Source of the DNA: an uncultured bacterium
Lineage (GTDB): Bacteria; Planctomycetota; Phycisphaerae; Phycisphaerales; SM1A02
DNA length: 61,192 nt
Direction: 5' to 3'
NCBI GenBank assembly: GCA_903891095.1
Contig: CAITDI010000066.1
Coordinates: forward strand, 1-61,192
Under the pieces are notes generated by a model. That model made no database searches. It worked only from the letters and a program-made list of their open reading frames with translations, and was not told where the DNA came from. This document shows positions 8,595 to 24,388 of this stretch, in pieces. Every line of letters begins with the position of its first letter. Position 1 is the stretch's first letter. The position numbers were made by a program, and so were the translations under genes.

Positions 8595-9893
8595 ATGAGT
8601 CTGACCAAGACCGTCGGCTTCTTCGCCGTCACGACCCTCGCCGTTGGTGGCGCGGCTTTCGGCGCCGAGCAGAACAACGACATGCAGGCCCAGATCGCTG
8701 ACCTGCAGGCGCAGGTTGCTGCCCTCAAGGGCGCCCAGAGCGGCCAGTGGCTCACCGAGCAGCGCGCTGCTGAGATCCGCGGCATCGTGACCGACGTCCT
8801 CGCGGACGCGGACACCCGCTCCAGCCTCGCTGGTCCCAGCGCTGGCGCTGGCTACAACGGCGGCTTCTTCCTGTCGTCGGCTGACGGCAACTACTCGATG
8901 AAGATCAACGTCCTCGAGCAGATCCGTTGGTCCTTCAACAACACCGACACCTCGACGACCGACACCATCCAGCCGTACGGCTTCGAGAACAAGCGCACGC
9001 GCCTCACGTTCTCGGGCAACATGGTTGACTCGACCTGGAGCTACAAGCTCGCGTACTACCTCGGCTACTCGAACAGCGCGGAGAACTTCGGCGCTGGCGA
9101 GCTCGCTGACGCGTTCGTCGCGAAGGACCTCGGCAACGGCCTCTCGGTCACCGTCGGTCAGTTCAAGCTGCCCTTCTCGGCTGAGTACGGCATCGACGTC
9201 GGCAACCTCCAGTTCAGCGACTACTCGGTCGCCAACACCGTGCTCGGCACCGGCTACGGCCAGGGCCTGATGCTCGGCTACGCTGCCGATCAGTTCCGCG
9301 CTGGTGTTGCTTACACCAACGCGCAGAACCAGGTCAACGAGAACTGGAGCTCCTCGTCGCCGTCTGACGACTGGGCGCTCACCGGCCGCGGCGAGTTCAA
9401 GGTCGCCGGCGACTGGGGCCAGTTCAACGACGCGCAGTCCTGGAAGGGCGAGGGCTTTGGCGCTCTCGTCGGCCTCGGCTACGCCACCGCCCGTGAGAAC
9501 GGCGCTGACAACGACCCGTGGAAGCTCACCATCGACGGCACCGTCGACTTCGGTGGCGCCAACCTCACCGGCGCGTACTACTGGACCGACCTCGACGACG
9601 GCTCGAACCAGCAGCCGGGTGGCTACACCCTCGCTGGCGGCGTGTTCCTCACCGACAGCTTCGAACTCGTTGCCCGTTGGGACTCGATCGATCCGGACAA
9701 CGGCGGCGACAACATCACCAGCTGGACCTTCGGCGGCAACTGCTACTTCGCGAAGAACACCGCGAAGTGCGGCGTCGAACTCGGCTACGCCCCGAACGCG
9801 ATGCCGGCCGGCCTCGAGTACGCCAACTGGGTTGACTCGAACGGTCAGGATGGCGAATGGGTCATCCGCGTCCAGATGTCGTTCAGCTTCTGA
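8595..9893 (+). CDS. Outer-membrane porin, coiled-coil/OprP-like type (paralogue A)
   Basis: A 432-residue outer-membrane beta-barrel protein, probably a general or anion-selective porin. A signal peptide covers about residues 1-23 (ending GGAAFGA). A short heptad coiled coil follows (MQAQIADLQAQVAALKG), then the segment WLTEQRAAEIRGIVTDVLAD, which recurs in the other three porins here. The rest is beta-rich with alternating polar/hydrophobic strands, resembling phosphate-selective porin O/P proteins (SVTVGQFKLPFSAEYGIDVG). It ends in ...QMSFSF; a C-terminal Phe is the usual barrel-assembly signal. A GGAGA site lies 9 bases before the ATG. It is very similar to the next gene, indicating tandem duplication. 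The substrate is unknown. Confidence 0.85.
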   Translation: MSLTKTVGFFAVTTLAVGGAAFGAEQNNDMQAQIADLQAQVAALKGAQSGQWLTEQRAAEIRGIVTDVLADADTRSSLAGPSAGAGYNGGFFLSSADGNYSMKINVLEQIRWSFNNTDTSTTDTIQPYGFENKRTRLTFSGNMVDSTWSYKLAYYLGYSNSAENFGAGELADAFVAKDLGNGLSVTVGQFKLPFSAEYGIDVGNLQFSDYSVANTVLGTGYGQGLMLGYAADQFRAGVAYTNAQNQVNENWSSSSPSDDWALTGRGEFKVAGDWGQFNDAQSWKGEGFGALVGLGYATARENGADNDPWKLTIDGTVDFGGANLTGAYYWTDLDDGSNQQPGGYTLAGGVFLTDSFELVARWDSIDPDNGGDNITSWTFGGNCYFAKNTAKCGVELGYAPNAMPAGLEYANWVDSNGQDGEWVIRVQMSFSF

Positions 9894-9966
9894 TCAGCTC
9901 GGCTGACAGAGCTCGCATCCACCCAGAAGTACAGGCACTCGCTGCCTGCAACCTCTAAGGCTCAGT

Positions 9967-10001
9967 CGGCCGCCCCGCAAGGGGCGGCCGATTTTGCTTT
10001 T
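9967..10001 (+). terminator. Rho-independent terminator after porin A
   Basis: Perfect 10-bp stem (CGGCCGCCCC / GGGGCGGCCG) with a GCAA tetraloop, followed by ATTTTGCTTTT. It ends 58 bases before the next porin's ATG, so porin B may be transcribed mainly by read-through or from a promoter within this short gap. Confidence 0.9.
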
Positions 10002-10059
10002 GACGCGCGCTGCTATGTTCCGCAAACTGCAGTTTCAACCTGCACACCAAGGAGCACAG

Positions 10060-11448
10060 ATGACTCGTCCCATGCATGTCGCCATGACCGCGATCGCCAC
10101 CTTGATCGCAACCTCGCACGTCTCCGTACTCGCCGCGGACCAGAGTGGTGAGCTCGCCGCGCAGATCGCACAGCTCAAGTCAGAGATCGCGTCGCTCAGC
10201 GGAGAGTCGCAGCAGTGGCTCACCGAGCAGCGCGCCGCGGAGATCCGCAGCATCGTCTCCGACGTGATCGCCGACTCCGACACGCGCACGAGTCTCCAAG
10301 GCAGCGCGGCGACCGCGGGCTACAACGACGGCTTCTTCCTGTCGTCCGCCGACGGCAACTTCTCGATGAAGATCAACGTCCTCGAGCAGATCCGCTGGAC
10401 GTTCAATGATTCCAAGGAGCCCGTGACTGCACCGCTCGGCGGCAAGCTGCTGGGCGCTCCGGGCGCCGCGGTCGATGGCGGGCAGTCGTACGGCTTTGAG
10501 AACAAGCGCACGCGCCTGAATTTCTCGGGAAACATGGTTGATTCCAGCTGGAGCTACAAGCTCGGCTACTACCTCGGCTACTCCGACAGCGCCGAAGCGT
10601 TCGGCGCCGGCGAACTCTCCGACGCCTACGTCGCGAAGGATCTCGGCAACGGCTTCAGCGTGACGGTGGGCCAGTTCAAGCTTCCGTTCTCCGCGGAGTA
10701 CGAGGTCGACGTCGGCAACCTGCAGTTCATGGACTACTCGACGGTGACGTACGTGTTTGATCTCGGCTACGGCCAAGGTCTCAAGCTCGGCTACGAGGCC
10801 GAGATGGTCCGCGTCGGCGTCGCCTACGTGAACGCGTTCGAGTCGGCGAACGCCGACTGGAGCGCGAGCTCTCCCGCGGCGGAGTGGTCGTTCGTCGGCC
10901 GCGTCGATGCGAAGCTCGCAGGCAACTGGAGCCAGTTCGAGCACGGCCAGTCGTGGCGGGGTGACGGTCTGGGAGCCAAGGTCGGCTTGGGACTCGGTTG
11001 GGAGCGCGACAGCATCGCGCCTGGCTCGTCGACGACGCTGTTCACGCTCGACACCGCGGTCAACTTCGGCGGCGCGAACGTTGCCGCCGCCTACTACGTC
11101 GCCAGCTTCAACGACACGGGCGATCCGACCCTCGATGGAGCGCACCCTGACGGATTCACGCTCAACGGCGGCCTCTTCGTGACCGACAGCGTGGAACTTG
11201 TGGCCCGCTACGAGTGGGCCGATCTCGATCTCGACCTCGGCGGCGCGGAGAACTTCTCCGCCCTGACGTTTGGCGGCAACTGGTACCTCGCCAAGAACTC
11301 CGCCAAGCTCAGCGCAGACCTCGGCTACGCGTTCGACAACGTGACGGGCTTCTACGCGTTCGAGGGACGCAGCAACAACTGGGTCGAGGACGTCGCGGGC
11401 AACGACGGCCAGTGGATGATCCGCACCCAGCTCTCCTTCAGCTTCTAA
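10060..11448 (+). CDS. Outer-membrane porin (paralogue B)
   Basis: A 462-residue close paralogue of porin A. A signal peptide covers about residues 1-26 (ending SVLAA). Next come a heptad region (ELAAQIAQLKSEIASLSG) and the shared WLTEQRAAEIRSIVSDVIAD segment, then a barrel. Long stretches match porin A almost residue for residue, such as GFENKRTRLNFSGNMVDSSW and VTVGQFKLPFSAEYEVDVGN. It differs by insertions, for example the TAPLGGKLLGAPGAAVDGG loop near residue 120. It ends ...QLSFSF. The frame is open from 9994, but AAGGAG at 10049-10054 places the start at the ATG at 10060. The loop differences suggest a different pore specificity. Confidence 0.85.
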   Translation: MTRPMHVAMTAIATLIATSHVSVLAADQSGELAAQIAQLKSEIASLSGESQQWLTEQRAAEIRSIVSDVIADSDTRTSLQGSAATAGYNDGFFLSSADGNFSMKINVLEQIRWTFNDSKEPVTAPLGGKLLGAPGAAVDGGQSYGFENKRTRLNFSGNMVDSSWSYKLGYYLGYSDSAEAFGAGELSDAYVAKDLGNGFSVTVGQFKLPFSAEYEVDVGNLQFMDYSTVTYVFDLGYGQGLKLGYEAEMVRVGVAYVNAFESANADWSASSPAAEWSFVGRVDAKLAGNWSQFEHGQSWRGDGLGAKVGLGLGWERDSIAPGSSTTLFTLDTAVNFGGANVAAAYYVASFNDTGDPTLDGAHPDGFTLNGGLFVTDSVELVARYEWADLDLDLGGAENFSALTFGGNWYLAKNSAKLSADLGYAFDNVTGFYAFEGRSNNWVEDVAGNDGQWMIRTQLSFSF

Positions 11449-11467
11449 GCCACTCCAACCGCATGTG

Positions 11468-11509
11468 CGACGGCCGTCCCCGAGGGGTTTCCTGAGGGGG
11501 CGGCCGTCG
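11468..11509 (+). terminator. Hairpin terminator after porin B
   Basis: Stem CGACGGCCG / CGGCCGTCG (9 bp, extended inward by C-rich/G-rich pairing) around an 18-24-base loop, followed by the weakly T-rich CTGCTTTCTGC. It starts 19 bases after the porin B stop. Confidence 0.7.
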
Positions 11510-11606
11510 CTGCTTTCTGCCGTTCGGCGGGATTTGTGTCGAGTGGCAGGGGCGTTTGCCGATAACGCCCTCGCCGCCCCTCGGCGCCTATCAAGGAGAT
11601 GGCTGG

Positions 11607-13229
11607 ATGCCAATGAATCACCAGAAGACTCGCGCAACGATCCGTCGCATCGCACGCACCCCACGTCCGCTCCTGACGCCGCTCATGCTTGCGGCGCTGG
11701 GAATTGCAGGCGTTGCGCGCGCCCAGGATTCCGGCGCGCCCAGTGCACAGGAGCTCATGCAGCGCATCGAGAAGCTCGAGGCTTCCAATCGTGCGCTCGC
11801 TGGCGAAGTCCAGACGCTCCGCGCCGAGGAAGGCGCGCAGTGGCTCTCCGAGGAGCGCGCTGCGGAGATCCGCAGCATCGTTTCCGACACGCTCGCCGAC
11901 AGCTCGACGCGCACCTCGCTGCAGTCGGTTGGTACGACGGCGGGATGGAACGACGGCTTCTTCCTGCAGAGCGCCGATGGCCGCTTCCGCCTGGAAATCG
12001 GCGGCTTGCTGCAGATGCGCTACGTCTACAGCTACATCCCCGATGGCGTCTCCGGCGTGAACCTGCCCGCGGGCACGGCATCGGCTGCGATCGCTGACAA
12101 CGTCGAGACCCGCTCGGGCTTCGACCTCCCAGACACGCAGCTCGACTTCAAGGGCTACGCGTTCGGTCCCAACTTCCAGTACCGCATCCGCGGCGTCTTC
12201 TCCAACCAGGATGAAGCAGTCGTCGGCCAGAATCCCTTCGGCAACCTCGGCAGCGGCAGCGGAGCCTTCCGCGTGCTCGATGCCTACGTGCGCGCGGAGC
12301 TTTCCGATGAGTTCTCTGTCCGCGTCGGTCAGTTCAAGCTGCCGTTCGCACGTGAGCAGCTCGTCGATGAGCAGTACCAGCTCGCCGTCGACCGCTCGGT
12401 GATCGTCGATCACCTCGGTCTCGGTCGTTCGCAGGGCGTTGAAGGCACCTGGTCGTCGGACAACGCGCGCGCCATGCTCGCGTTCTCCAACGGCGGCACC
12501 GACAACGTCTACGGCATCCTCAAGGCCGTCGGCAGCGAGCCGATGGGCTCGAACTACGGCAGCGACGGCGTCGATTGGGCCGTGACCGGCCGCTTCGAGT
12601 GGAAGTTCGCGGGCCAGTGGAAGCAGTTCAACTCGATGACCAGCCCGCCGGGCGACGAGTACGCCATGCTGGTCGGCATCGCTGCGCACGCGCAGGACGG
12701 CGATCCCGACAACGGCAACAACACGACGACCACCCAGCCGAACACCTGGTACGCCTTCACTGGCGACGTCAGCGTGATGCTCGGCGGCGCGTCGCTCTTC
12801 GCGAGCTTCAGCTACTCGAACACCAACTCGGGCTCCGCCTTCGTTGCTGGCTCGAACAACTTCAACCCGCCGGCCTACTTCGACATCGGCAAGTCCGAGT
12901 GCTGGGGCGTCGTCACCCAGGCTTCGTACTACATCGCTCCCAAGTGGGAAGTCTTCGGCCGTATGGAAATCGGCAACGCCTCGGTGCCCAACATCGGCAA
13001 CATCTCGAACCCGACGGGCACCAGCAGCCTCGAGAACGGCAACATGCTGACGATCACCACGATCGGCCTCAACTGGTACATCGATGGTCAGGACCTCAAG
13101 TGGTCCAGCGACTTCGGCTTCGCCTGGGATTCGGTCGACGGCGTCTGGTACGACGGCGCCAACGGATGGCGCGCCGCGGCTGACCAGAGCGAGATCGTGT
13201 TCCGGTCGCAGCTCCAGCTGGCCTTCTGA
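11607..13229 (+). CDS. Outer-membrane porin (paralogue C)
   Basis: A 540-residue porin, more divergent than A and B. The N-terminus is long and basic (MPMNHQKTRATIRRIARTPR) before a hydrophobic core and an AQA-like cleavage site (GVARAQDS). A heptad coiled coil (ELMQRIEKLEASNRALAGEV) and the shared WLSEERAAEIRSIVSDTLAD segment come next. The barrel includes SVRVGQFKLPFAREQLVDEQ and ends ...QLQLAF. The start is the ATG at 11607, with AAGGAG 8 bases upstream; the ATG six bases later is also possible. The mature barrel is longer than in A and B, with Asn/Thr-rich loops. It closes the three-porin cluster; the substrate is unknown. Confidence 0.85.
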   Translation: MPMNHQKTRATIRRIARTPRPLLTPLMLAALGIAGVARAQDSGAPSAQELMQRIEKLEASNRALAGEVQTLRAEEGAQWLSEERAAEIRSIVSDTLADSSTRTSLQSVGTTAGWNDGFFLQSADGRFRLEIGGLLQMRYVYSYIPDGVSGVNLPAGTASAAIADNVETRSGFDLPDTQLDFKGYAFGPNFQYRIRGVFSNQDEAVVGQNPFGNLGSGSGAFRVLDAYVRAELSDEFSVRVGQFKLPFAREQLVDEQYQLAVDRSVIVDHLGLGRSQGVEGTWSSDNARAMLAFSNGGTDNVYGILKAVGSEPMGSNYGSDGVDWAVTGRFEWKFAGQWKQFNSMTSPPGDEYAMLVGIAAHAQDGDPDNGNNTTTTQPNTWYAFTGDVSVMLGGASLFASFSYSNTNSGSAFVAGSNNFNPPAYFDIGKSECWGVVTQASYYIAPKWEVFGRMEIGNASVPNIGNISNPTGTSSLENGNMLTITTIGLNWYIDGQDLKWSSDFGFAWDSVDGVWYDGANGWRAAADQSEIVFRSQLQLAF

Positions 13230-13362: not shown

Positions 13363-16300
13363 ATGCCCACAGCCCCCGCCAAATCCAGCAGCTCGACGGA
13401 CGCCGCGTCCGCCGCCACCCTGATCCACCGCATCGAGGTGCGTCCGCGCCGTGGACACCATGACCCGCGCGGCCAGTCGGTGCAGAAGGCGATCGAGTCG
13501 CTCGGCCTGGCCAAGCAGCCCAAGCGCGTCGAGTACACCGCGGTCTACCTGATCGAGGGCGCGCTGACCTCGCAGGAAGTCGACCGCGTCGCCAACGAGC
13601 TCCTCGCCGACTGCGTGACGCAGTCCGCCGAGGTCCACGCCTCCAACCGCGCGAGCCGCCCGACCGTCGCCCCTGGCTCCGCCGTGGTCGAGGTTCATCC
13701 GCTGCCCGGCGTGACCGATCCTGCCGCCGAGAGCGTGCAGGCGGCGATCCTCGCGCTGACCGGCCGCACCGTGAAGGTCCGGACCGGCGACCGCTACGAC
13801 CTGCATGGTGTGGACAAGGTGATCGCCAAGACCGTCGGCGAGCGTCTGCTGGCGAACCCCGTCATCCACGCGATCCACACCGATCCGTACTTCCCGAGCT
13901 CGGTCCCGACGGGCACGCCGTACAAGCTGGCGATCCGCGAGGTCGCGATCACCAGGCTCAGCGACGCCGAGCTCGAGAAGCTCTCGCGCGAAGGGCATCT
14001 CTTCCTCTCGCTCGACGAGATGAAGGCGATCCAGGCCGAGTACCGCCGCGTTGGCCGCGAGCCGCGCGAGATCGAGCTCGAGACGCTGGCGCAGACGTGG
14101 TCGGAGCACTGCGTGCACAAGACGCTCAAGTCGACCGTGCGCTATCGCGAGATGTCGAGCGACCCCGCGTTCGAAGGCCAGTGGTCGCTTGCGAGCGACG
14201 CCAAGGGCCGCCCGAACCACGAGGTCTCCGCCGACGGCACCGTGACCGTCAAGAACCTCCTCAAGTCGACCGTCGCCGCGAGCACGCATGAGCTCATGAA
14301 GGACGGCATCGACTGGTGCCTCTCGGTGTTCGTCGACAATTCGGGCGTGGTCGCGTTCGACGACGAGCACGCGGTGTGCTTCAAGTGCGAGACGCACAAT
14401 CGCCCGAGCGCGATCGAGCCGTACGGCGGCGCGGCCACCGGCATCGGCGGCTGCATCCGCGACGTGATCGGCACGGGTCTCGGCGCGAAGCCGATCGCGG
14501 CGACGGATGTCTTCTGCGTGGCGTATCCCGACGTCGCCGAAGTTCCGCAGGGCTGCCTCGATCCCAAGCGCATCCTCAACCAGGTCGTCGCCGGCGTGCG
14601 CGACTACGGCAACCGCATGGGCATCCCCACGCTCAACGGCGCGGTGTACTTCGACGACAACTACGTGGGCAACCCGCTTGTCTACTGCGGCTGCATCGGC
14701 CTCATGCCGCGCAGCTGCGTCAAGGGCCGCACGCACGCGGGCGACGCGATCATCGCGCTTGGCGGACGCACGGGCCGCGACGGCATCCACGGCGCGACGT
14801 TCTCGAGCGCCGAGCTCACCGACAAGCACGCGAGCGAGTTCAGCCACGCCGTGCAGATCGGCAACGCGATCACCGAGAAGAAGGTGCTCGACGCGATCCT
14901 CGCGATGCGCGATCGCGCAGGCGGGCCGCTGTACCACGGACTGACCGATTGCGGCGCGGGCGGATTCTCGAGCGCGATCGGCGAGATGGCGAGCGAGGTC
15001 GGCGCCACGGTGCACCTCGAGCGCGCGCCGACCAAGTACGACGGCCTTTCGCCGACCGAGATCTGGATCAGCGAGGCGCAGGAGCGCATGGTGCTCTCGG
15101 TGCCCGCGGAGAACATCGAGGAACTCGCGCGCATCTGCGCGGACCACGGCGTCGACTGGTGCAACTTCGGAACCTTCGGCAGCGACACGGGCGACATCAC
15201 GCTGTTCTGGCATGGCGTCGAGGTCGGCCGTCTGTCGTGCGAGTTCCTGCACGGCGCGATTCCGATGCCCGTGCGCGAAGCCGTGTGGGACGCGTCGTGG
15301 GCCGCGCAGCAGCGCTCGAACAAGCGCGCGCGCCAGTTCTCGCGTGATCTCGCGCAGTCCTCGGCCGACGCGATGCTGGTGCTCGAGGCTCTTCTCGCGC
15401 ATCCGAACATCGCGAGCAAGGCGTGGATCATCCGTCAGTACGACCACGAGGTTCAGGGCTCGAGCGTGCTCAAGCCGCTCGTGGGCGAGCCTGTCGGCAC
15501 GAGCGCGGGCGGCCCCGGCGATGCCGCGGTGATTCGTCCGAAGAAGGGCTCCGACAAGGCGCTCGCGATCGGCAACGGCCTCGCGACCGGACTCGGCGCC
15601 GATCCGTACGCGATGGCGATCGCCGCGATCGACGAGTGCGTGCGCAACCTCGTGTGCGTGGGCGCGGACCCGACGCACATCGCGATCCTCGACAACTTCT
15701 GCTGGCCGAGCTGCAAGGACCCGCGCAACATGGGTTCGCTCGTGCGTGCATGCGAAGGCTGCTACGACGCGGCCAAGGCGTACCGCACGCCGTTCATCTC
15801 GGGCAAGGACTCGCTCAACAACCAGTTCGTGACCGAGGACGGCCGCACGATCCAGATCCCGCCGACGCTGCTCATCTCGGGCTTTGCGCCGGTGACCAAG
15901 GATGTCAACGCGGTCTCGATGGACGCCAAGCGCGCGGGCTCCAGGCTCGTGCTCGTGGGCAACACCAGCAATCGCCTCGGCGGCTCGCACTTTGCGATGC
16001 TCGCGGGTGCGGCGCCGAGCGCGTCGCGGCTCCCGTCGCCCGACCTCGTCGCGGGTCCCAAGCACGCGGCCGCGGTCGCGCGCGCGATCGGCACGGGCAT
16101 CGTGCGCGCGGCGCATGACTGCAGCGAAGGCGGCCTGCTCGTGGCCGCCGCGGAGATGGCGTTCAGCGGCAACCTCGGCCTCGCGCTCGATGTCGCGGCG
16201 ATGCCTGCGGACGGCGACGTGCCGTTCCTCGCGCGCTGCTTTGCCGAGGACGCGCACCGCTACCTGCTCGAGGTCGACGAGAAGGACCTCGCGTCGCTCT

Positions 16301-16455
16301 CGAAGGCGCTCGGCGATGTGCCGCATGCGGTGATCGGATCGTTCAACGCGTCGGGCGAGCTCTCGCTCGGCGACGGATCGGGAATGGCTGCGACCAAGGT
16401 GTCCGCGCTCGGCGAACGCTGGAGCAGCGGCATGGCGAGCGGAGGATTCGCGTGA
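13363..16455 (+). CDS. purL: Phosphoribosylformylglycinamidine synthase: two PurS-like domains fused to PurL
   Basis: Converts FGAR to FGAM in purine synthesis, using ammonia from PurQ. At 1030 residues it is much longer than a small-type PurL (~740). Residues ~22-100 (HRIEVRPRRGHHDPRGQSVQ...) and ~106-180 (VVEVHPLPGVTDPAAESVQ...) both look like PurS domains, so it carries a covalent tandem PurS. The PurL part begins near residue 190 and shows TWSEHCVHKTLKS, CFKCETHNRPSAIEPYGGAA and GIHGATFSSAEL, plus a second AIR-synthase-like half (GGFSSAIGEMASEVGATVHL; AAHDCSEGGLLVAAAEMAFS). There is no glutaminase domain at the C-terminus; that is supplied by purQ, whose GTG start overlaps this stop codon. 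Confidence 0.94.
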   Translation: MPTAPAKSSSSTDAASAATLIHRIEVRPRRGHHDPRGQSVQKAIESLGLAKQPKRVEYTAVYLIEGALTSQEVDRVANELLADCVTQSAEVHASNRASRPTVAPGSAVVEVHPLPGVTDPAAESVQAAILALTGRTVKVRTGDRYDLHGVDKVIAKTVGERLLANPVIHAIHTDPYFPSSVPTGTPYKLAIREVAITRLSDAELEKLSREGHLFLSLDEMKAIQAEYRRVGREPREIELETLAQTWSEHCVHKTLKSTVRYREMSSDPAFEGQWSLASDAKGRPNHEVSADGTVTVKNLLKSTVAASTHELMKDGIDWCLSVFVDNSGVVAFDDEHAVCFKCETHNRPSAIEPYGGAATGIGGCIRDVIGTGLGAKPIAATDVFCVAYPDVAEVPQGCLDPKRILNQVVAGVRDYGNRMGIPTLNGAVYFDDNYVGNPLVYCGCIGLMPRSCVKGRTHAGDAIIALGGRTGRDGIHGATFSSAELTDKHASEFSHAVQIGNAITEKKVLDAILAMRDRAGGPLYHGLTDCGAGGFSSAIGEMASEVGATVHLERAPTKYDGLSPTEIWISEAQERMVLSVPAENIEELARICADHGVDWCNFGTFGSDTGDITLFWHGVEVGRLSCEFLHGAIPMPVREAVWDASWAAQQRSNKRARQFSRDLAQSSADAMLVLEALLAHPNIASKAWIIRQYDHEVQGSSVLKPLVGEPVGTSAGGPGDAAVIRPKKGSDKALAIGNGLATGLGADPYAMAIAAIDECVRNLVCVGADPTHIAILDNFCWPSCKDPRNMGSLVRACEGCYDAAKAYRTPFISGKDSLNNQFVTEDGRTIQIPPTLLISGFAPVTKDVNAVSMDAKRAGSRLVLVGNTSNRLGGSHFAMLAGAAPSASRLPSPDLVAGPKHAAAVARAIGTGIVRAAHDCSEGGLLVAAAEMAFSGNLGLALDVAAMPADGDVPFLARCFAEDAHRYLLEVDEKDLASLSKALGDVPHAVIGSFNASGELSLGDGSGMAATKVSALGERWSSGMASGGFA

Positions 16456-17288
16456 ATCGCGCGGAGAAACACACGATGAAGGCACTCGTCATCACGGCAC
16501 CCGGCATCAACTGCGACCTCGAGCTCTGCGAGGCGTTCGCGCTCGCGGGCTGCGAGGTCACGAGCGAGCTGCTCACGCGGCTCTCGCGCGATCCGTCGCA
16601 GATCGACCGCTACGACCTCATCGGCCTGCCCGGCGGATTCAGCTACGGCGACGATGTCGCGGCGGGCCGCATCATGGCCGCGCTCATCCGCGAGTCGATC
16701 TATCCCGCGCTTTCCGCGGCGATCGCGCGCGGCGTTCCCATGATGACGCCGTGCAACGGCTTCCAGATCGCGGTGCAGGCGGGACTTCTTCCGGGCCCCG
16801 AGGCCGGCGAAGCGTGGAGCGATGTGCCCACCGAGCCGACCGTCGCGCTCGCGCAGAACGCGACCGCGCGCTTCAACGACATCTGGACCACGATGGAGAT
16901 CCCCGCGGGCACGCGCTGCGTGTGGACGCGCGACCTCAAGATGGACGCGGACACCGCGCTCATGTCGTGCGCGCACGGCGAGGGCCGCTTCGTCGCCGAG
17001 CAGGAGACGATCGACGCGCTTGAGGCGAACGGCCAGGTCGCCGTGCGCTACGGCGCGCGCGATCACTTCAACGGCTCGATCAACCGCATCGCGGGCATCT
17101 GCGATGCGACGGGTCTCGTGTTCGGCCTCATGCCGCATCCCGAGCGCTACCTGCACTGGACGCAGCATCCGCGCTGGACGCGCTTGTCGGCCGCGCAGCG
17201 CACGGGCGACACGCCTGGCCTGCAGATGTTCAAGAACGCCGTCGCGCACGCCGCGAAGGCGCGCACGGTGACCGGCGGCCGTCGATGA
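16452..17288 (+). CDS. purQ: Phosphoribosylformylglycinamidine synthase, glutaminase subunit
   Basis: The class I glutamine amidotransferase subunit that releases ammonia for PurL. It has 278 residues, longer than the common ~225. The nucleophile is C101 in TPCNGFQ and the catalytic pair is H229/E231 in PHPER. LIGLPGGFSYGDDVAAGRI, before the nucleophile, is typical. The start is the GTG at 16452, overlapping the purL stop as GTGA, with GGAGG 6 bases upstream inside purL; an in-frame ATG eight codons later is a less likely start. The end overlaps the next gene as ATGA, so purL, purQ and the oxidoreductase are translationally coupled. Confidence 0.95.
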   Translation: MNRAEKHTMKALVITAPGINCDLELCEAFALAGCEVTSELLTRLSRDPSQIDRYDLIGLPGGFSYGDDVAAGRIMAALIRESIYPALSAAIARGVPMMTPCNGFQIAVQAGLLPGPEAGEAWSDVPTEPTVALAQNATARFNDIWTTMEIPAGTRCVWTRDLKMDADTALMSCAHGEGRFVAEQETIDALEANGQVAVRYGARDHFNGSINRIAGICDATGLVFGLMPHPERYLHWTQHPRWTRLSAAQRTGDTPGLQMFKNAVAHAAKARTVTGGRR

Positions 17289-18334
17289 CGGCCACCGCAC
17301 TCAAGACGCTTCGCTGCGCGACGATCGGCGTCGGCCGCATGGGCCGGCATCACGCGCGCCTCTACGCGCAGACCGACGGCTGCGATCTCGTCGGCGTCGT
17401 CGATGGCAACGTCGAGCGCGCGTCGAAGATCACCGAGGAGTGGGGCGGCCGCGCCTTCGCGAGCGTGCAGGAACTCATCGATCATGGCGTCGATGCGGTC
17501 ACCATCGCGACGCCGACGATCACGCACCGCGCGATCGTCGAGCCGCTGCTCGAGGCGGGCATCGCGTGCCTGGTCGAGAAGCCGCTCGCGCCCGACGTCG
17601 CCGAAGCGCGCGCGATCGCGGACACCGCGAAGCGCACGGGTTCGCTGCTGCAGGTCGGTCACATCGTGCGCTACGACCCGGTGATGATCGCGATCCGCGA
17701 GCTCATCATGGGCGGCGCGATGCGGCCGCGGTTCATCGAGATCGACCGCGTGAGCCCGATGACTTTCCGCTCGGTCGACGTCGGCGTCGTGCTCGACATG
17801 ATGATCCACGACCTCGACGTGCTCTTCATGCTCATGGGCGCGGAGCCCGAGGAAATCCACGCGAACGCGGTGTGCGTCGTCGGCGAGGCCGAGGACGTGT
17901 GCAACGCGCGGCTCGTGTTTCCCGCGGGTCCCGACGGCCTGCGCTGCACGGCGAACGTCACCGCGAGCCGCCTCGCGCTCAAGACCGAGCGCAAGATGCG
18001 GCTCATCAGCGAGGACGCGTACATCTCCGCCGACTACGGCGAGAAGAAGGGCCACGTCGTGCGCAAGACTGCGAACGCCGCGCAGCTCGCCGATGTGCGC
18101 GAGCGCCTCAAGCGCGGCGAGGACCTCTCGAGCGTGAACTACCTCGAGATGATCACGATGGAGCCGCTCGCCGTCGGTTCGGGCGAGCCGTTGAAGCTGC
18201 AGCTCCTCGACTTCATGGATGCGGTGCGCAACAACAGGCGTCCGCTCGTGAACGCAGAGGACGGCTTTGCCGCGGTCCGCACCGCGGAACGCATCGTCGC
18301 CGCGGCGAGGGCCGCGGGCGCGCGCATGGTTTGA
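17285..18334 (+). CDS. Gfo/Idh/MocA family NAD(P)-dependent oxidoreductase
   Basis: A 349-residue two-domain dehydrogenase. The N-terminal Rossmann fold has ATIGVGRMGRHHARLY near residue 12, and the family's EKP motif lies at 98-100 (VEKPLAPD). The C-terminal alpha/beta domain carries MMIHDLDVLFMLMG, matching the conserved catalytic-region H-D pair. Members oxidise or reduce sugars and sugar nucleotides; the compact layout resembles UDP-GlcNAc 3-dehydrogenases of lipid A synthesis, but the substrate cannot be fixed from sequence. Its ATG overlaps the purQ stop (ATGA), which implies one transcript with the purine genes, although no purine-pathway role is known for the family. Confidence 0.85.
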   Translation: MTATALKTLRCATIGVGRMGRHHARLYAQTDGCDLVGVVDGNVERASKITEEWGGRAFASVQELIDHGVDAVTIATPTITHRAIVEPLLEAGIACLVEKPLAPDVAEARAIADTAKRTGSLLQVGHIVRYDPVMIAIRELIMGGAMRPRFIEIDRVSPMTFRSVDVGVVLDMMIHDLDVLFMLMGAEPEEIHANAVCVVGEAEDVCNARLVFPAGPDGLRCTANVTASRLALKTERKMRLISEDAYISADYGEKKGHVVRKTANAAQLADVRERLKRGEDLSSVNYLEMITMEPLAVGSGEPLKLQLLDFMDAVRNNRRPLVNAEDGFAAVRTAERIVAAARAAGARMV

Positions 18335-18358
18335 CTACGTTTCTCGGGGATCCGCGAC

Positions 18359-20215
18359 ATGGCTGCCGAAGACCGCGTCCTTCTCGTCGACGACCAGCCC
18401 ATGATGGGCGAGGTCGTCAAGCGCATGCTCGACGCTGCGGGTGGATTCGAGCTGCGCGTGGTGTCGACGCCTGGCAGCGCGCTTGACGCGGCGCGCGAGT
18501 TCATGCCGACGGTGATCCTGCAGGACATCGAGATGCCCGGGATCAACGGCTTCGAGCTGCTTGACGCGTATCGCGCGGATGCGGCGCTCGCAGATGTTCC
18601 CGTGCTCATGCTCACCAGCGTCGAGAACGCCGAGGCGAAGGCGAAGGCCTTTGAACTCGGCGCGAACGACTACATGGTCAAGTTTCCCGACGCGATCGAG
18701 ATGGTCGCGCGCGTGCGGAGGCATTCGCTGGTTCGTCGGCAGGCGCTCGCGCGCGTGCAGCGTGCGGCCGACGCGGAGCGTGCGCGCAATCCGCTGGGCT
18801 TCATGCGCGAGCCGCTGCCGCAGTGCGATGTCGCGATCATCGGCGGTGGATTCAGCGGGCTCATGTCGGCGGTGCGCATCGCGGCTGCGGCGCCGGGCGC
18901 GAGCCTGAGCGTGTTCGAGCGGCGTTCGCGTGGCGGACCAGGCGTCGCGTACGGCGCGTGCGATGGCGAGCACTTGCTCAATGTTCCCGCGGCGCGCATG
19001 GGCGCGTTCGCGGAGAAGCCGACGGCGTTCCACGAATGGCTCGAGCGCGAGGCGCCTGGGCGGTTCGGTGCGAGTGATTTCGCGCCGCGCGCGATGTTCG
19101 GCCGCTATCTGATCGAGACGGTGCGTGGCGCGCTCGACGCATCGACCCCGCGGCCGCGACTCGTGTCCGACGCGGTCGTGCATCTCGAGCGCCATGCTGC
19201 GGGCTTTGAGCTGCTGCTTGCGTCGGGACGCACGGTGATCGCGCGCGGTGTCGTGCTCGCGGTTGGACTTCCACAGGCGCGCGCGCCGTGGCGCGGCGTC
19301 GGCGGCGATGCGCTCGCCGCGATTCCGCGCAAGCTGCTCGTCGACGATCCGTGGGAACCTGGCGCGCTCGATGGCATCCCTGCGGACGACACGGTCGTCA
19401 TCGTCGGCAGCGGACTCACGGCGGTGGATGTCACGCTTGGACTTCGACGCCGCGGACATCGCGGCAAGCTCGTGCTCGTGTCGCGCAACGGCCGCTTTCC
19501 GCTGCCGCACGCTGCGTCGCATGGTGCTCCGCCAGCGCTGGATTTCGCGGAGCTCGCGCGCAGTCCGCAGGATGCGTTCCGCCTCGTGCGCCGCACGGTG
19601 CGCGACCTCGCGTCGCACGATCACGAGTGGCACGGCGCGATCGACGGCGTGCGTCCGCACGCGACCAAGGTCTGGCAGGCGTGGTCGACGGAGCAGCGCG
19701 CGTACTTCCTGCGTCGGCTGCGTCCGTACTGGGAGATTCACCGTCATCGCGTTCCGCCGCATCTTCTTGCGGTGCTGGATGCGGAGCGCGCGGCGGGCAC
19801 GCTCGAGCTCGTCGCTGGCGGTGTGGCGGGCATCGCTGCTGCTGCGGATGCCGAGGCGATCGATGTGACGGTCAAGCCCGCACGCGGCGCATTGCAAGCG
19901 CTGCGCGCCGCGCGCATCATCAACTGCGTCGGTCCCGCGATGAGCGTCGCGGAGACGGTCGATCCGCTGCTTGGCTCGCTGTTTCGCAGCGGAATGGCCG
20001 TCGCGGACGCGCTTGGTCTCGGCCTGCGTTCCGACGCGGAAGGCCGCGTGCTCGACGCGCAGCATGCGCCGCAGCGCGGCATGCGTCTCGTTGGCGCACT
20101 GCGTCGCGGCGAGCTGTGGGAGTCGACCGCGGTTCCCGAACTGCGCGTGCAGGCCGCGGTCGCGGCGGAATCGCTCGCGCGCGAGCTCGGCATCTTCAAG
20201 GCGCCATCGGCATGA
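18359..20215 (+). CDS. Response-regulator receiver domain fused to an FAD/NAD(P)-binding oxidoreductase
   Basis: A 618-residue single frame joining two families. Residues 1-135 form a receiver domain: acidic pair D11/D12, phospho-acceptor D56 in LQDIEMPGINGFELL, T86, and K108 in GANDYMVKFPD, the style seen in WspR/PleD regulators. A helical linker (118-150) leads to an FAD-binding oxidoreductase of the FAD-NAD(P)-binding 9 type: GGGFSG at 162-167, GGPGVAYGACDGEHLLNVPA after it, and a second dinucleotide fold with VVIVGSGLTAVD (GSG 350-352). No DNA-binding or GGDEF domain is present. No histidine kinase is nearby. It begins 24 bases after the Gfo gene and overlaps nfo as ATGA. The chemistry and substrate are unknown; phosphorylation may control redox activity (inference). 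Confidence 0.88.
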   Translation: MAAEDRVLLVDDQPMMGEVVKRMLDAAGGFELRVVSTPGSALDAAREFMPTVILQDIEMPGINGFELLDAYRADAALADVPVLMLTSVENAEAKAKAFELGANDYMVKFPDAIEMVARVRRHSLVRRQALARVQRAADAERARNPLGFMREPLPQCDVAIIGGGFSGLMSAVRIAAAAPGASLSVFERRSRGGPGVAYGACDGEHLLNVPAARMGAFAEKPTAFHEWLEREAPGRFGASDFAPRAMFGRYLIETVRGALDASTPRPRLVSDAVVHLERHAAGFELLLASGRTVIARGVVLAVGLPQARAPWRGVGGDALAAIPRKLLVDDPWEPGALDGIPADDTVVIVGSGLTAVDVTLGLRRRGHRGKLVLVSRNGRFPLPHAASHGAPPALDFAELARSPQDAFRLVRRTVRDLASHDHEWHGAIDGVRPHATKVWQAWSTEQRAYFLRRLRPYWEIHRHRVPPHLLAVLDAERAAGTLELVAGGVAGIAAAADAEAIDVTVKPARGALQALRAARIINCVGPAMSVAETVDPLLGSLFRSGMAVADALGLGLRSDAEGRVLDAQHAPQRGMRLVGALRRGELWESTAVPELRVQAAVAAESLARELGIFKAPSA

Positions 20216-21159
20216 GCAACGCGCAATCGCTGTGCGAGAAGCACTGGATCGGCTCGCACCTCTCGATCGCGGGCGCGTTGCGCGCGGCGATCGACGAAGC
20301 CGTCGCGTTTCGCTTTGGCGCGGTGCAGATCTTCACGCGCAACCAGCGGCAGTGGACGCCCAAGCCGCTGGAGAAGGACGAGATCGCCGAGTTCCACGCC
20401 GCGCGCAAGGGCACGGTGTTCGCCGAAGGCGCGCGCATCGTGAGCCACAACAGCTACCTCGTGAACCTCGCGTCGCCCGACGCCGCGAACCTCGCGAAGT
20501 CGATGGCGTGCGAGCGCGCCGAGCTCGAGCGCTGCGAGCTGCTCGGCGTTCCCGTGTCGGTCGCGCATCCCGGTGCGCATCTCGGCACCGATGGCGCGCG
20601 CAAGCCGAAGGATCCGAACGACCTCGACGGCGAGCCGACCGCGGATGAGCTCGCGGGCCTCAAGCGCATCGCCAAGTCGATCGACCAGCTGCACAAGGAG
20701 CTCAAGGGCTACAAGGTGCGCATCGCGCTCGAGACGACGACGGGCACGGGCACGAACCTCGGCTACGCGTTCCATCATCTCGCGCGCATCCGCGACATGG
20801 TCAAGGAGCCTGAGCGCGTCGCGTACTGCATCGACACCTGCCATGTGTTCAGCGCGGGCTACGACGTCTCGACGCCCGCAAAGGCCAAGGCCACGCTCGC
20901 GCGCTTTGACGCCGAGGCGGGACTCGCGCATGTCGCGGCGATCCATGTGAACGACTCCGAGGCGCCGTTCGCGTCGCGCAAGGACCGGCACGCGCACATC
21001 GGCGAAGGCCTGTGCGGCGACGCGTGGTTCCAGGCGGTGCTGCGCCATCCTGCGTTTGCCACGGTGCCCAAGGTCCTCGAGACCGAGAAGGGCGACGCGC
21101 GCGACGGCCGCCCGTGGGATCTGGTCAACTCCGAGCGCCTCGCCGCGTTCGCGCGCTGA
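20212..21159 (+). CDS. nfo: Deoxyribonuclease IV (AP endonuclease)
   Basis: Cleaves DNA 5' of abasic sites during base-excision repair, using three metal ions in a TIM barrel. It has 315 residues, a little longer than typical (~285). Metal-ligand and signature segments are all present: IVSHNSYLVNLASPD, VAHPGAHLGTDG, ALETTTGTGTNLGYAF, YCIDTCHVFSAGYD, and HVNDSEAPFASRKDRHAHIG, where the final His-Ile-Gly is diagnostic. The frame is open much further upstream, but that part is the shadow of the upstream gene; the ATG at 20212 overlaps its stop codon (ATGA), so translation is probably coupled. Confidence 0.95.
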   Translation: MSNAQSLCEKHWIGSHLSIAGALRAAIDEAVAFRFGAVQIFTRNQRQWTPKPLEKDEIAEFHAARKGTVFAEGARIVSHNSYLVNLASPDAANLAKSMACERAELERCELLGVPVSVAHPGAHLGTDGARKPKDPNDLDGEPTADELAGLKRIAKSIDQLHKELKGYKVRIALETTTGTGTNLGYAFHHLARIRDMVKEPERVAYCIDTCHVFSAGYDVSTPAKAKATLARFDAEAGLAHVAAIHVNDSEAPFASRKDRHAHIGEGLCGDAWFQAVLRHPAFATVPKVLETEKGDARDGRPWDLVNSERLAAFAR

Positions 21160-21178: not shown

Positions 21179-21571
21179 ATGCCTGACGCAAGCCCAGTCG
21201 ATCCGTCGCTGCTCGAGTTCTTCGATTCGCCGAGCGATTCGCCGTTCATCATCGAGCACGTGAGCGATGAGTTCACTTCGGTGTGCCCGAAGACGGGCCA
21301 CCCGGACTTCGGCCGCATCATCCTGCGCTACCAGCCGGCCGCGGTGTGCGTCGAGCTCAAGAGCCTCAAGCTGTACTACCAGAGCTTCCGCAACGCGGGC
21401 ATCTTCTACGAGGCGGTCACCAATCGCCTGCGCGACGATCTCGCCGACGCGATGAGCCCGGTGTGGATGCAGGTCATCACCGACTGGAAGGGTCGCGGCG
21501 GAATCCGCTCGAAGATCGTTGCCACGCACGGCCACGTTCCCGACGCGTGGGTGGCGAAGCTGGACGCTTGA
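21179..21571 (+). CDS. queF: NADPH-dependent 7-cyano-7-deazaguanine reductase
   Basis: Reduces preQ0 to preQ1 in queuosine synthesis for tRNA. It has 130 residues, the short unimodular QueF type. The catalytic C36 lies in EFTSVCPKTGHPDFG, with the conserved Asp as D43. The NADPH-binding QueF motif is CVELKSLKLYYQSFRN near residue 60. The open frame begins further left inside nfo, but MPDASPVDPSLLEFF from the ATG at 21179 is the natural N-terminus. No other queuosine gene is in the window. The downstream gap to the convergent gene contains a fragment of the dispersed repeat family. Confidence 0.93.
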   Translation: MPDASPVDPSLLEFFDSPSDSPFIIEHVSDEFTSVCPKTGHPDFGRIILRYQPAAVCVELKSLKLYYQSFRNAGIFYEAVTNRLRDDLADAMSPVWMQVITDWKGRGGIRSKIVATHGHVPDAWVAKLDA

Positions 21572-21679: not shown

Positions 21680-24388
21680 TCAGCCGCCGAACTGGATCGT
21701 CGGCATCGCGCGCTTCTTCTTCGCGGGGAGTTCGCCGATGTCCTTGGCCTTCTCGGCGCCGACTTCGACGAGCAGCATCTCCTGCAGCTTGCGGAACGAC
21801 GACGCCTCGATCTGCTCGAGGTCCTCGCGCAGCTTCTTCTGCTCGCGCATGCGGTTCTGCATGCTGGCCATCTGCGCGGAGGGATCCTCCTGCTTCGCGC
21901 CCCTGGCCTCGGATGCCTTGGCCTCGGATGCCTTGCGCATGTCCTCGATGTAGCTTTCGCAGCGCGTCTCGCGGGTCTCGATCCAGTCGCTGCGCATTGC
22001 GGCGAGCTTGGCCTTGGCGGAGTCGCTCATGCCTTCGATCGCGGCGGCCTTGGTGAAGAACGGCTCGAGGTCGCGCATGCCGCGGTAGACCGAGGGATTC
22101 GCGGCGCGGAGGAATCCGCGGCGAACGGCCTTCTGCGCGGCGATGTCGCCGTCGAGCGCGGCGACAAGCGTGTCGACCGTGCGGCGGTTGTTGTCGGCGA
22201 TGCGGCCGCGTGCCTTGGTGATCTTGGACTCGACGGCCTGCAGCTTCTCGACGGTCTCGCCTTCGATCTGCACGGCTTGGCTGACCTTGACCTGGCCGTT
22301 GCCGCTGTCCTCGGTGACTTCCTTGGTCGCGTTCTGGAACAGTCGGTAGCGCTCGGCCTCGAGGGTCTTGACCTCGCTCTTCATCGAGCGGATCGAGTCG
22401 ACGGATGCCTCGTCCCACGACTTGAGGTCGCCCGCGACCTTGGCGCGCGCGGCGTCGGCGAGCGCGGCGGCCTCGACGATCGCGACGAGATCCGCGGACT
22501 GCGCGCCGGTCTCGCCCGGGAGCAGGCGCACGCGTGCGCGCGCGCGGCGTGCCGCGGCGAGCGCGTCGTTTTTGTCGTTCGCGACGACGGCCTTGAGCTC
22601 GTCGAACATCTGCTCCTCGAGCGTGTCGATCGCCTCGATGAGCTTGGGGTTGTCGCCAGATGCGAAGCCGGAGACTTCGCCATCGCCGCCGACGGAGAGC
22701 TGGAACGTCATCGCGCCGCCGTCGGCGCCGCCGACTTCGATCTGCTGCTGCTTGGGCGCGAGTTCCTTCTCGGCCACGGTGCGGGCCTCGACGGCGCGCG
22801 CGATGATCTCGTCGAGCAGGCCGCGCGTGTCCTTGCCAAAGCCGAGCTTGTTGGCGAGCTGGTCGATTTCTTCGCCATTCATCGGGCGCGGGACGCGCTG
22901 GCCGCCGCCACCGATGCCGCCGAAGAACATGCCGCTTTCCATCATGTCGTCGCCCGAGAGCACGATCATGTTGTCGCCGCCGGGACCCGCCATCACGGCG
23001 CTCACCGCGATCGTGGCCTCGCCGGCGATCGCTCCGCCGATTGCACCCTGGATCGCATCCTGGATTCCGACGCGGTCGAGCTTCTTGCCGTCGACGTCGG
23101 CGGGCTTCTCGATGCCGAGCAGCGCGCGCAGCGTGTCGGCGTCGCGCGTGTCGATGCCCGCGAGTTCATCGCGCAGGCGCTTGAGCTTGTCGTCGGCCTT
23201 GGCTCTTTCGTCCATGGCTCTTTCGTCCGTGGCGTTTTCGTCCTGCTGATCTCCGCTCATGATGATGCGGATGCCGATGCCGTCCTCGGTCGGCGGATGC
23301 GCGTCGATCTCGCTCATCAAGTCGTTGTAGAGCGGGCGCACGGACAGCTCGTGCGACTCGAGCAGCGCCGTGACTGCGGGGAACTTGGACTCGTCGAGTT
23401 CCTTCTTCTTGCGCTTGGCGACGGCGAGGTCGGCGACGGTGTCGAACTCGCTCTTGGTTCGGATCGTGGGGTAGACCGCGCTGAGCATCGCGTTGCGGAG
23501 CGTGCGCGCCTTGATCGGCTCGAGCAGGCCGCTCACGTTGTCGAGCGCGTCGCGCTGGAGCTTGCGGATCTCGCCGGCGATCTTGTTGCACTCGACGTTG
23601 GCCTGCGCCTGCACGTCGCGCATCTTCTTGAACCACTCTTCGCCGGGCGGCGCTTGCTCTGCGGGTTGCTCGCCGTCGGCAGCGGGGGCGGCGTCGGGGC
23701 CGCCGTTGAGGCCCATTTCCTCGCGGAGTTCCGCGACGCGCACGCTGCGGTTGATGGCGGCGGTGGCGTAGCTCTCCAGCAGCCGCGCGAACTCGGCCTC
23801 GTAGCCGAACAGCGAATGCAGGATGAAGCGACGGTCCTCGGGATCGAGATCCGCAAAGACCGGCTGCGCGCAGATGTTGAACTCGAGCGCCTTGGCGCCG
23901 AGGCCGAACGGCGGGGCGAGCGCTGCGCAGCGGCGGCGAACGAGCGCGAGGCGAAGGCGCTCGACGCTCTCGCTCGCTTGCGACGGAAGCAGTCCCGCGA
24001 GCTCGGCAGTGAGCTGGTCATCGAGCTGTGCGGCGCGCTCGAAGATGCGGCGGCGCGCTTCGGCGTCCTTCTTGGCGTTGGCGACGGTGCGCGAGAGATC
24101 GAACAGGTTGTCCTTGCCCTTGGCGAACGTGGGATCGACCTCGCGCTCCTCGAACTCGCGGAAGCGCTTGAAGTACGCCTCGTGCAGCGGCAGCGCGGTG
24201 TCCTTGGTCGAGTCGGGCATGCCGCACTCGAGCAGCATGGTCTCGAACTGCGCGGCCGAGACGGGCGACGGCAGCTGGCGGCCGAACTGCGCATCCGCGC
24301 GCGGCGCGAGCGCGATCGGCGCGGCGAGGGCGACCGCGAGGGCGAGCGAAGCGATGGGGCGAAGAAGGTGGGCGAGGTGCTTGTTCAT
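21680..24388 (-). CDS. Large secreted, mostly helical protein of unknown function
   Basis: A 902-residue protein with a clear signal peptide (HLLRPIASLALAVALAAPIA..., cleavage near ADA-QFG at about residue 34). Beyond that I recognise no domain. The sequence is dominated by charged, Ala-rich helices likely to form coiled coils (residues ~70-330 and ~590-860). They are interrupted near residues 425-510 by a Gly/Met-rich stretch (AIQGAIGGAIAGEATIAVSA, then SGMFFGGIGGGGQ). A short acidic duplication, DERAMDERAKADD, lies near residue 390. The C-terminus is basic (PAKKKRAMPTIQFGG). It probably sits in the periplasm. A secreted esterase ends 100 bases upstream on the same strand. Codon use matches its neighbours, giving no sign of recent transfer. 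Confidence 0.75.
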   Translation of the reverse strand: MNKHLAHLLRPIASLALAVALAAPIALAPRADAQFGRQLPSPVSAAQFETMLLECGMPDSTKDTALPLHEAYFKRFREFEEREVDPTFAKGKDNLFDLSRTVANAKKDAEARRRIFERAAQLDDQLTAELAGLLPSQASESVERLRLALVRRRCAALAPPFGLGAKALEFNICAQPVFADLDPEDRRFILHSLFGYEAEFARLLESYATAAINRSVRVAELREEMGLNGGPDAAPAADGEQPAEQAPPGEEWFKKMRDVQAQANVECNKIAGEIRKLQRDALDNVSGLLEPIKARTLRNAMLSAVYPTIRTKSEFDTVADLAVAKRKKKELDESKFPAVTALLESHELSVRPLYNDLMSEIDAHPPTEDGIGIRIIMSGDQQDENATDERAMDERAKADDKLKRLRDELAGIDTRDADTLRALLGIEKPADVDGKKLDRVGIQDAIQGAIGGAIAGEATIAVSAVMAGPGGDNMIVLSGDDMMESGMFFGGIGGGGQRVPRPMNGEEIDQLANKLGFGKDTRGLLDEIIARAVEARTVAEKELAPKQQQIEVGGADGGAMTFQLSVGGDGEVSGFASGDNPKLIEAIDTLEEQMFDELKAVVANDKNDALAAARRARARVRLLPGETGAQSADLVAIVEAAALADAARAKVAGDLKSWDEASVDSIRSMKSEVKTLEAERYRLFQNATKEVTEDSGNGQVKVSQAVQIEGETVEKLQAVESKITKARGRIADNNRRTVDTLVAALDGDIAAQKAVRRGFLRAANPSVYRGMRDLEPFFTKAAAIEGMSDSAKAKLAAMRSDWIETRETRCESYIEDMRKASEAKASEARGAKQEDPSAQMASMQNRMREQKKLREDLEQIEASSFRKLQEMLLVEVGAEKAKDIGELPAKKKRAMPTIQFGG

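Follow-up and report, generated by a model that had tools for sequence, protein, structure and literature searches.

The window analysed here is a stretch of 61,192 nucleotides (contig CAITDI010000066.1) from an uncultured planctomycete of the SM1A02 lineage. At positions 18359 to 20215 of its forward strand, an uninterrupted run of 618 codons plus a stop encodes a receiver fused to a flavoprotein, in the gene order PurL-PurQ-Gfo/Idh-fusion-Nfo-QueF, with the fusion starting 24 bases past the Gfo/Idh stop. An earlier note, made from the sequence alone, had described one frame with a complete receiver and a flavoprotein of two dinucleotide folds, and the residues and motifs are found at the positions that it gave. 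The features of the locus are as follows.

13363-16455, + strand: PurL
16476-17288, + strand: PurQ
17285-18334, + strand: Gfo/Idh/MocA oxidoreductase, upstream border of a variable site
18359-20215, + strand: fusion gene, 618 amino acids, single open frame from ATG to TGA
18359-18724, + strand: receiver domain of the WspR type by sequence and model, residues 1-122 (Pfam 7-119; 3bre, E 2.3e-32)
18524-18526, + strand: codon of D56, the phospho-acceptor, invariant in 5/5 fusions
18725-18814, + strand: last part of the long helix plus linker, residues 123-152 (predicted helix 112-143, like the WspR stalk)
18815-20212, + strand: PF13454 flavoprotein, residues 153-618 (Pfam)
18842-18859, + strand: GGGFSG, FAD dinucleotide motif, residues 162-167 (motif read in the sequence)
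18980-18982, + strand: codon of N208, counterpart of the catalytic FzmM residue Asn62 (profile alignment)
19406-19414, + strand: GSG, NAD(P) dinucleotide motif, residues 350-352 (motif read in the sequence)
19730-19750, + strand: WEIHRHR, conserved Arg/His cluster, residues 458-464 (conservation among aligned family members)
20212-21159, + strand: Nfo-like endonuclease IV (AP_endonuc_2), downstream border; its start overlaps the stop of the fusion (ATGA)
21179-21571, + strand: QueF-like

The Response_reg family (PF00072) matches residues 7 to 119 of the fusion protein with an E value of 1.5e-19 and 70.6 bits against a curated cut-off of 30.2, and the acidic pair D11 and D12, the aspartate D56, the Thr/Ser residue T86 and the lysine K108 are all present. 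The solved structure that best matches the receiver by sequence is that of WspR (3bre), the REC-GGDEF protein of Pseudomonas, and residues 4 to 141 of a structure model, comprising the receiver and the long helix, superpose on WspR with an rmsd of 1.1 Å over 138 residues. The model as a whole is weak (mean pLDDT 64, pTM 0.44, from a restricted set of alignment rows). Judged by sequence and by model, the receiver is of the WspR type, with a stalk helix that superposes as well. The window protein differs from WspR in that it contains no GGDEF domain (Pfam, E 0.01), has a flavoprotein as its output and is encoded outside a wsp operon. The receiver type named in the earlier note therefore stands, but GGDEF was a less apt comparison output, as the nearest receivers of the genus drive SpoIIE phosphatases. 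Outside the phylum, such receivers carry PP2C/SpoIIE-like, cyclase-like or GGDEF outputs, as read from the sequences rather than by a family search. A conserved short form of the protein starting at the internal M149 was also considered; it is unlikely, as among the five fusions M149 is found in the window's species only.

In the flavoprotein part, NAD_binding_9 (PF13454) matches residues 159 to 303 (E 5.7e-32; 111.3 bits against a curated cut-off of 21.8). A search with the single sequence gave no good match among solved structures. A profile of 22 family members matched one chain at family level, namely, FzmM (8cp2), with an E value of 9.1e-22, the next match being at 2e-9 over a short stretch; with one FzmM-like row (L107) in the profile, the value was 6.5e-30, the figure of 9.1e-22 being that obtained without this row. 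Foldseek also places FzmM (8cp2) first (E 3.4e-16), with a loose superposition (TM of about 0.4, rmsd of 12.8 Å), and FzmM is absent from the best 50 rows of a second aligner, where receivers, thioredoxin reductases and the like are found. As described in excerpts of PMC10404684, FzmM is an L-aspartate N-hydroxylase in which Asn62 lies over the flavin C4a and Trp51 against the isoalloxazine, with the substrate held by an Arg cluster. In the profile alignment, Asn62 aligns with N208, which is invariant among the 22 family members, and Trp51 aligns with Y198. The substrate residue Arg13 corresponds to F165 in the window protein, and Arg is not kept there; Arg residues 266, 276, 409, 412 and 416 and Asn413 of the helical domain, as well as Arg577, fall outside the aligned stretches. 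Among solved structures, FzmM (8cp2 and 8cp5; excerpts of PMC10404684) is the best homologue for the enzyme part and has the same catalytic Asn, but it contains no receiver, its Arg13 is not shared and its helical substrate region is left unaligned by the profile. The PF13454 family has a conserved Arg/His set of its own among the 22 aligned members. NAD(P)H-driven flavin chemistry of the class-B type is plausible for the window protein, and aspartate is not indicated as its substrate. A literature search by family name yielded, among the matches listed, no paper on the function of this PF13454 enzyme family.

Thioredoxin reductases are NAD(P)H-using flavoproteins, and a redox-active CxxC motif is their mark. 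According to an excerpt of PMC5847659, bacteria are known to have receivers joined to metabolic enzymes, and one that is named there is a "Mycobacterium-like" protein in which a receiver is joined to a thioredoxin reductase. The window protein shares with it the joining of a receiver to an NAD(P)H-using flavoprotein and differs from it in having PF13454 and no CxxC motif (its cysteines are at 156, 201 and 523). To speak of an undescribed system, as was done at first, is too strong, since receiver-metabolic enzyme fusions, that with thioredoxin reductase included, are in print according to the same excerpt. Among the matches listed from open-licence papers, none combined a receiver with PF13454. 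While the principle of a receiver-enzyme fusion is already known, its combination with PF13454 appears to be new; such fusions may occur elsewhere, the search beyond the phylum being a pattern scan for close relatives only.

PF13454 itself is found at an E value of 1e-10 in 18 of 294 genomes across the phylum, and receiver-less PF13454 proteins, among them the E. coli and Corynebacterium glutamicum controls, which match, belong to the same enzyme family; invariant residues are common to the 22 members aligned. Within the family of the window's organism, 36 of 181 genomes match the protein at an E value of 1e-45 or better, and in five of the 181, from two genera, the match starts at residue 1 or 6, inside the receiver, so that the two-domain order, which it had been proposed to look for in other genomes, does recur. 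Three further species of the genus, G001, G008 and G014, encode full-length fusions at 85 to 87% identity (L038 to L040 were treated as these same genomes and not added to the counts). The fifth fusion, from G570 in a second genus, emerged when 397 genomes across the class were searched and has 60 to 61% identity over the full length. The other 31 matching family genomes, reread with six receiver queries, have no receiver adjoining the flavoprotein; in two of them, G816 and G766, the contig ends there and leaves no readable upstream DNA, and the count is 0 of 29 readable family loci. The description of these flavoproteins as normally free-standing accords with those loci as far as receivers are concerned, but it does not hold throughout, as members of the same enzyme family are fused to another partner domain, cysteine dioxygenase, in G041, G058, G436, G767 and G770. 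One further genome, G727, was considered as a possible fusion (match from residue 87, with a stop inside), and rereading found no receiver.

That most matching family genomes (31 of 36, two of them without readable upstream DNA) show no receiver is what an assembly or frameshift artefact could produce, and the earlier note had named the splitting of all homologues into two proteins, together with a frameshift or misassembly between residues 130 and 150, as the sign of one. Against this, the homologues are not all split, no frameshift lies at residues 130 to 150 and the joint (residues 123 to 152) is open and in frame in 5/5 fusions. In four sequences of the genus, dN/dS is 0.16 to 0.24 for the receiver, 0.12 to 0.23 for the 30-residue linker and 0.10 to 0.14 for the flavoprotein (five of six pairs; G014/G001 was left out as too close), and by this measure both domains are under purifying selection. 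The receiver and flavoprotein of G570 are equally diverged from those of the window (60 and 61% identity), and D11, D12, D56, T86 and K108 are invariant in 5/5 fusions, down to 60% identity. Furthermore, each domain of the five fusions forms one clade in its tree, supported at 99/99 for the receivers (bootstrap not settled) and 85/90, not starred, for the flavoproteins; a single fusion event fits both domain trees, without being proven by them. With the fusion present in five genomes from two genera, its joint intact, dN/dS low and one clade for each domain, we reject an artefact of assembly and consider the chance of any such artefact negligible. Among viruses, one contig encodes a distant flavoprotein (36%), the match being limited to that part, and among 72,556 plasmid records, 3375 match and none aligns to 80% of the query at a single place.

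The fusion occupies a site that varies within the genus. Between Gfo/Idh and Nfo, 4 of 16 genus genomes have the fusion, 5 have a receiver-less flavoprotein and 5 are empty, with about 20 to 50 bases at the empty sites; the remaining two were not scorable (a break at this point in G006, and no match to Gfo in G013). One receiver-less relative is encoded at L059, 9968-11443. As an observation in its own right, this junction (window 17285-21159; L056 to L064) is a site of gene presence and absence, and it is of note that a record titled Candidatus Kuenenia stuttgartiensis (L040) bears the locus of the genus, a title that may be a mislabel. In a tree built from Gfo and Nfo, the four species that carry the fusion are not placed together (AU p 0.0027). 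Between G014 and G001, the gene shows 22 differences in 1881 positions (99% identical), whereas identity in the flanks, taken per 100 bases, is 56 to 90% and dS for the adjacent Nfo is 0.91, which argues that the gene moves by recombination. The identical tract runs from the last codons of Gfo to about 90 bases into Nfo, a pattern that homologous recombination through conserved gene ends would be expected to leave. In a second genus, g26, the receiver-less form is found at the Gfo/Nfo site, with both borders in 10 of 12 genomes and one border in the other two, where the stretch stops at a contig end. In a third genus (G729; L169, 2800-4551), a receiver-less flavoprotein lies between border remnants, with matches confined to the final 30 residues of Gfo (at 83% identity) and to Nfo residues 13 to 64 (44%), and it looks like a cassette that took pieces of its borders along. 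The fusion of G570 sits elsewhere, among genes unrelated to the Gfo-Nfo region. From these comparisons, the gene appears to be passed on laterally as a cassette of one gene, both from species to species and from genus to genus.

In the window's own genome, the nearest receiver (57% over residues 5 to 143) is that of a REC-SpoIIE protein (G000:C24; L054, 7541-8746), followed by that of a REC-GAF-HD protein (41%). The REC-SpoIIE protein differs from the fusion in its output, a PP2C-type phosphatase, and in its recognition surfaces, which the fusions of the genus share by half. Its gene closes a Wsp-like operon (MCP, CheW, CheR, CheW, CheA-REC, CheB and REC-SpoIIE); this chemosensory operon (L054, 1-8746) is worth recording for having REC-SpoIIE rather than REC-GGDEF as its output. 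In the receiver tree, the fused receiver groups nearest the Wsp-like receiver of the genus, with support of 97/100 without G570 and 83/100 with it (bootstrap not settled). A tree that keeps the 15 genus receivers together and apart from the fusions has a higher likelihood (AU 0.84), and we therefore claim only that these are nearest relatives, and not that the fused receiver arose from the Wsp-like receiver of its own genus.

The surfaces by which a receiver would be recognized have changed in the window's genus. Compared with the Wsp-like receivers, the four genus fusions have 48, 43 and 52% identity in α1, α4 and α5, respectively, helices in which the 15 Wsp-like receivers of the genus agree with one another at 92 to 95%, and 25 and 50% in the β4-α4 and β5-α5 loops. 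While β1, β3 and β4 are at 87 to 100%, β2 (36%) and β5 (65%) are also changed, and hence the divergence is not confined to the surface. The G570 fusion, which has L57/V58 where the other fusions share I57/E58, is at 77, 51 and 90% in α1, α4 and α5 and at 48 and 50% in the two loops; since it keeps α1 and α5, their divergence belongs to the window's genus.

These comparisons bear on the phosphodonor. No kinase gene had been seen nearby, and this holds for the whole contig, to which none of the genome's listed matches to HisKA (10), Hpt (4) or HATPase_c (18) maps. The Hpt matches include the Wsp-like CheA (C24; L054, 4066-6420), a second frame of 899 amino acids (C104) and a small frame (C36). 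The Wsp-like CheA is a possible but doubtful donor, beside about a dozen histidine kinases of the same genome: the ancestry shared with the Wsp-like receivers speaks for it, yet the diverged surfaces of the genus fusions weaken the idea of a common kinase. With α1, α4 and α5 at only 43 to 52%, these fusions may use a different kinase or pair in another way. Conversely, the 77% of α1 and 90% of α5 in G570 suggest that the fused receiver may have started out with a Wsp-like CheA kinase.

Sequence comparison establishes the one-piece fusion, the phosphorylation residues, the dinucleotide motifs, the catalytic Asn, the selection, the trees and the lateral spread, and from these we infer phosphorylation, gating, chemistry and substrate. 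We propose, with about even confidence for and against, that the protein is a response regulator whose output is an enzyme, namely, an NAD(P)H/FAD oxygenase-like one gated by phosphorylation. A kinase would phosphorylate D56; the receiver and its long C-terminal helix (112 to 143) would then change their pairing or orientation, as in WspR and PleD, and this change would switch the FAD enzyme, reduced by NAD(P)H, which is probably a flavin oxygenase of the class-B type acting on a small, acidic or sulfur amino acid-like substrate. Alternatively, the receiver might serve solely as a docking or pairing module, for dimerization of the enzyme or its placement at a partner, with catalysis unchanged by phosphorylation. 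The receiver-less relatives at the same site in five genus species, which indicate that the enzyme is kept without a receiver, and the diverged recognition surfaces would agree with such a module; however, the five phosphorylation residues are invariant in all five fusions though the receivers differ by up to 40%, and we regard this alternative as rather unlikely. It is also conceivable that the flow is reversed, with the state of the flavin setting the gain or loss of phosphate by the receiver, which would then be a redox-sensitive phosphate sink, for example, for the Wsp-like pathway. The nearness of the fused receiver to the Wsp-like receivers in the tree, with or without the fifth fusion, the presence of the Wsp-like operon elsewhere in the genome and the Wsp-like α1 and α5 of G570 favor a sink, but the surfaces needed to compete for that kinase have diverged in the window's lineage and the gene is unlinked to the operon, making it quite improbable. 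If gating of the enzyme by phosphorylation is true, a two-component kinase would control a redox or oxygenase reaction directly, without transcription as an intermediate step, and closely related species would offer natural sets with the fused form, the receiver-less form or no gene at one chromosomal site.

As for the substrate, 37 receiver-less loci were read in stretches of 4 to 20 kb, 18 of the Gfo-Nfo type (G729 included) and 19 others, one of which (G766) is unreadable on its upstream side. In 10 of these 19, cysteine dioxygenase is fused to the flavoprotein or lies beside it, the dioxygenase coming first in four fusions (G058, G436, G767 and G770) and the flavoprotein in one (G041), and being a neighbour in five loci (G034, G074, G078, G381 and G754). 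The dioxygenase assignment has confirmation from Pfam in G058 and G078; all others are BLAST matches. The in-frame fusions are at the following positions, with the dioxygenase assigned by BLAST except in L068.

L067, 9849-11909: cysteine dioxygenase-flavoprotein fusion
L068, 9565-11517: cysteine dioxygenase-flavoprotein fusion
L145, 7787-9667: cysteine dioxygenase-flavoprotein fusion
L170, 2521-4413: cysteine dioxygenase-flavoprotein fusion
L171, 4902-3001: cysteine dioxygenase-flavoprotein fusion

In addition, a sulfate-type binding protein (read from SBP_bac_11) lies near the flavoprotein in L071, L072 and L146, and a CysD-like gene (read from PAPS_reduct) does so in L065, both by Pfam/BLAST. 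The enzyme family thus repeatedly joins cysteine dioxygenase. The product of the latter, cysteine sulfinate, is similar to aspartate, on which FzmM acts, and on these grounds the window protein could be a flavin oxygenase that acts on sulfur amino acids and is gated by phosphorylation, with the receiver replacing the dioxygenase as supplier and a kinase setting the flux. We consider this extension improbable. Cysteine dioxygenase is found at 0 of the 18 Gfo-Nfo type loci and has no match in any of the 16 genomes of the window's genus, so that the sulfur link is a lead only, and we did not adopt the idea, prompted by relatives at other loci, that the window protein acts on a sulfur compound. 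Nonetheless, the cysteine dioxygenase fusions and the homology to FzmM provide a first testable class of substrates.

Two further observations concern the surroundings of the gene. Downstream, a protein of 902 amino acids (window 21680-24388) has no Pfam match at 1e-5; its identity is 36 to 48% in four relatives, below that of its neighbours, and 68% over a fragment of 62 residues in a fifth. Upstream, positions 8595 to 13229 encode three consecutive proteins with signal-like starts, as read by eye, of which relatives hold two or three.
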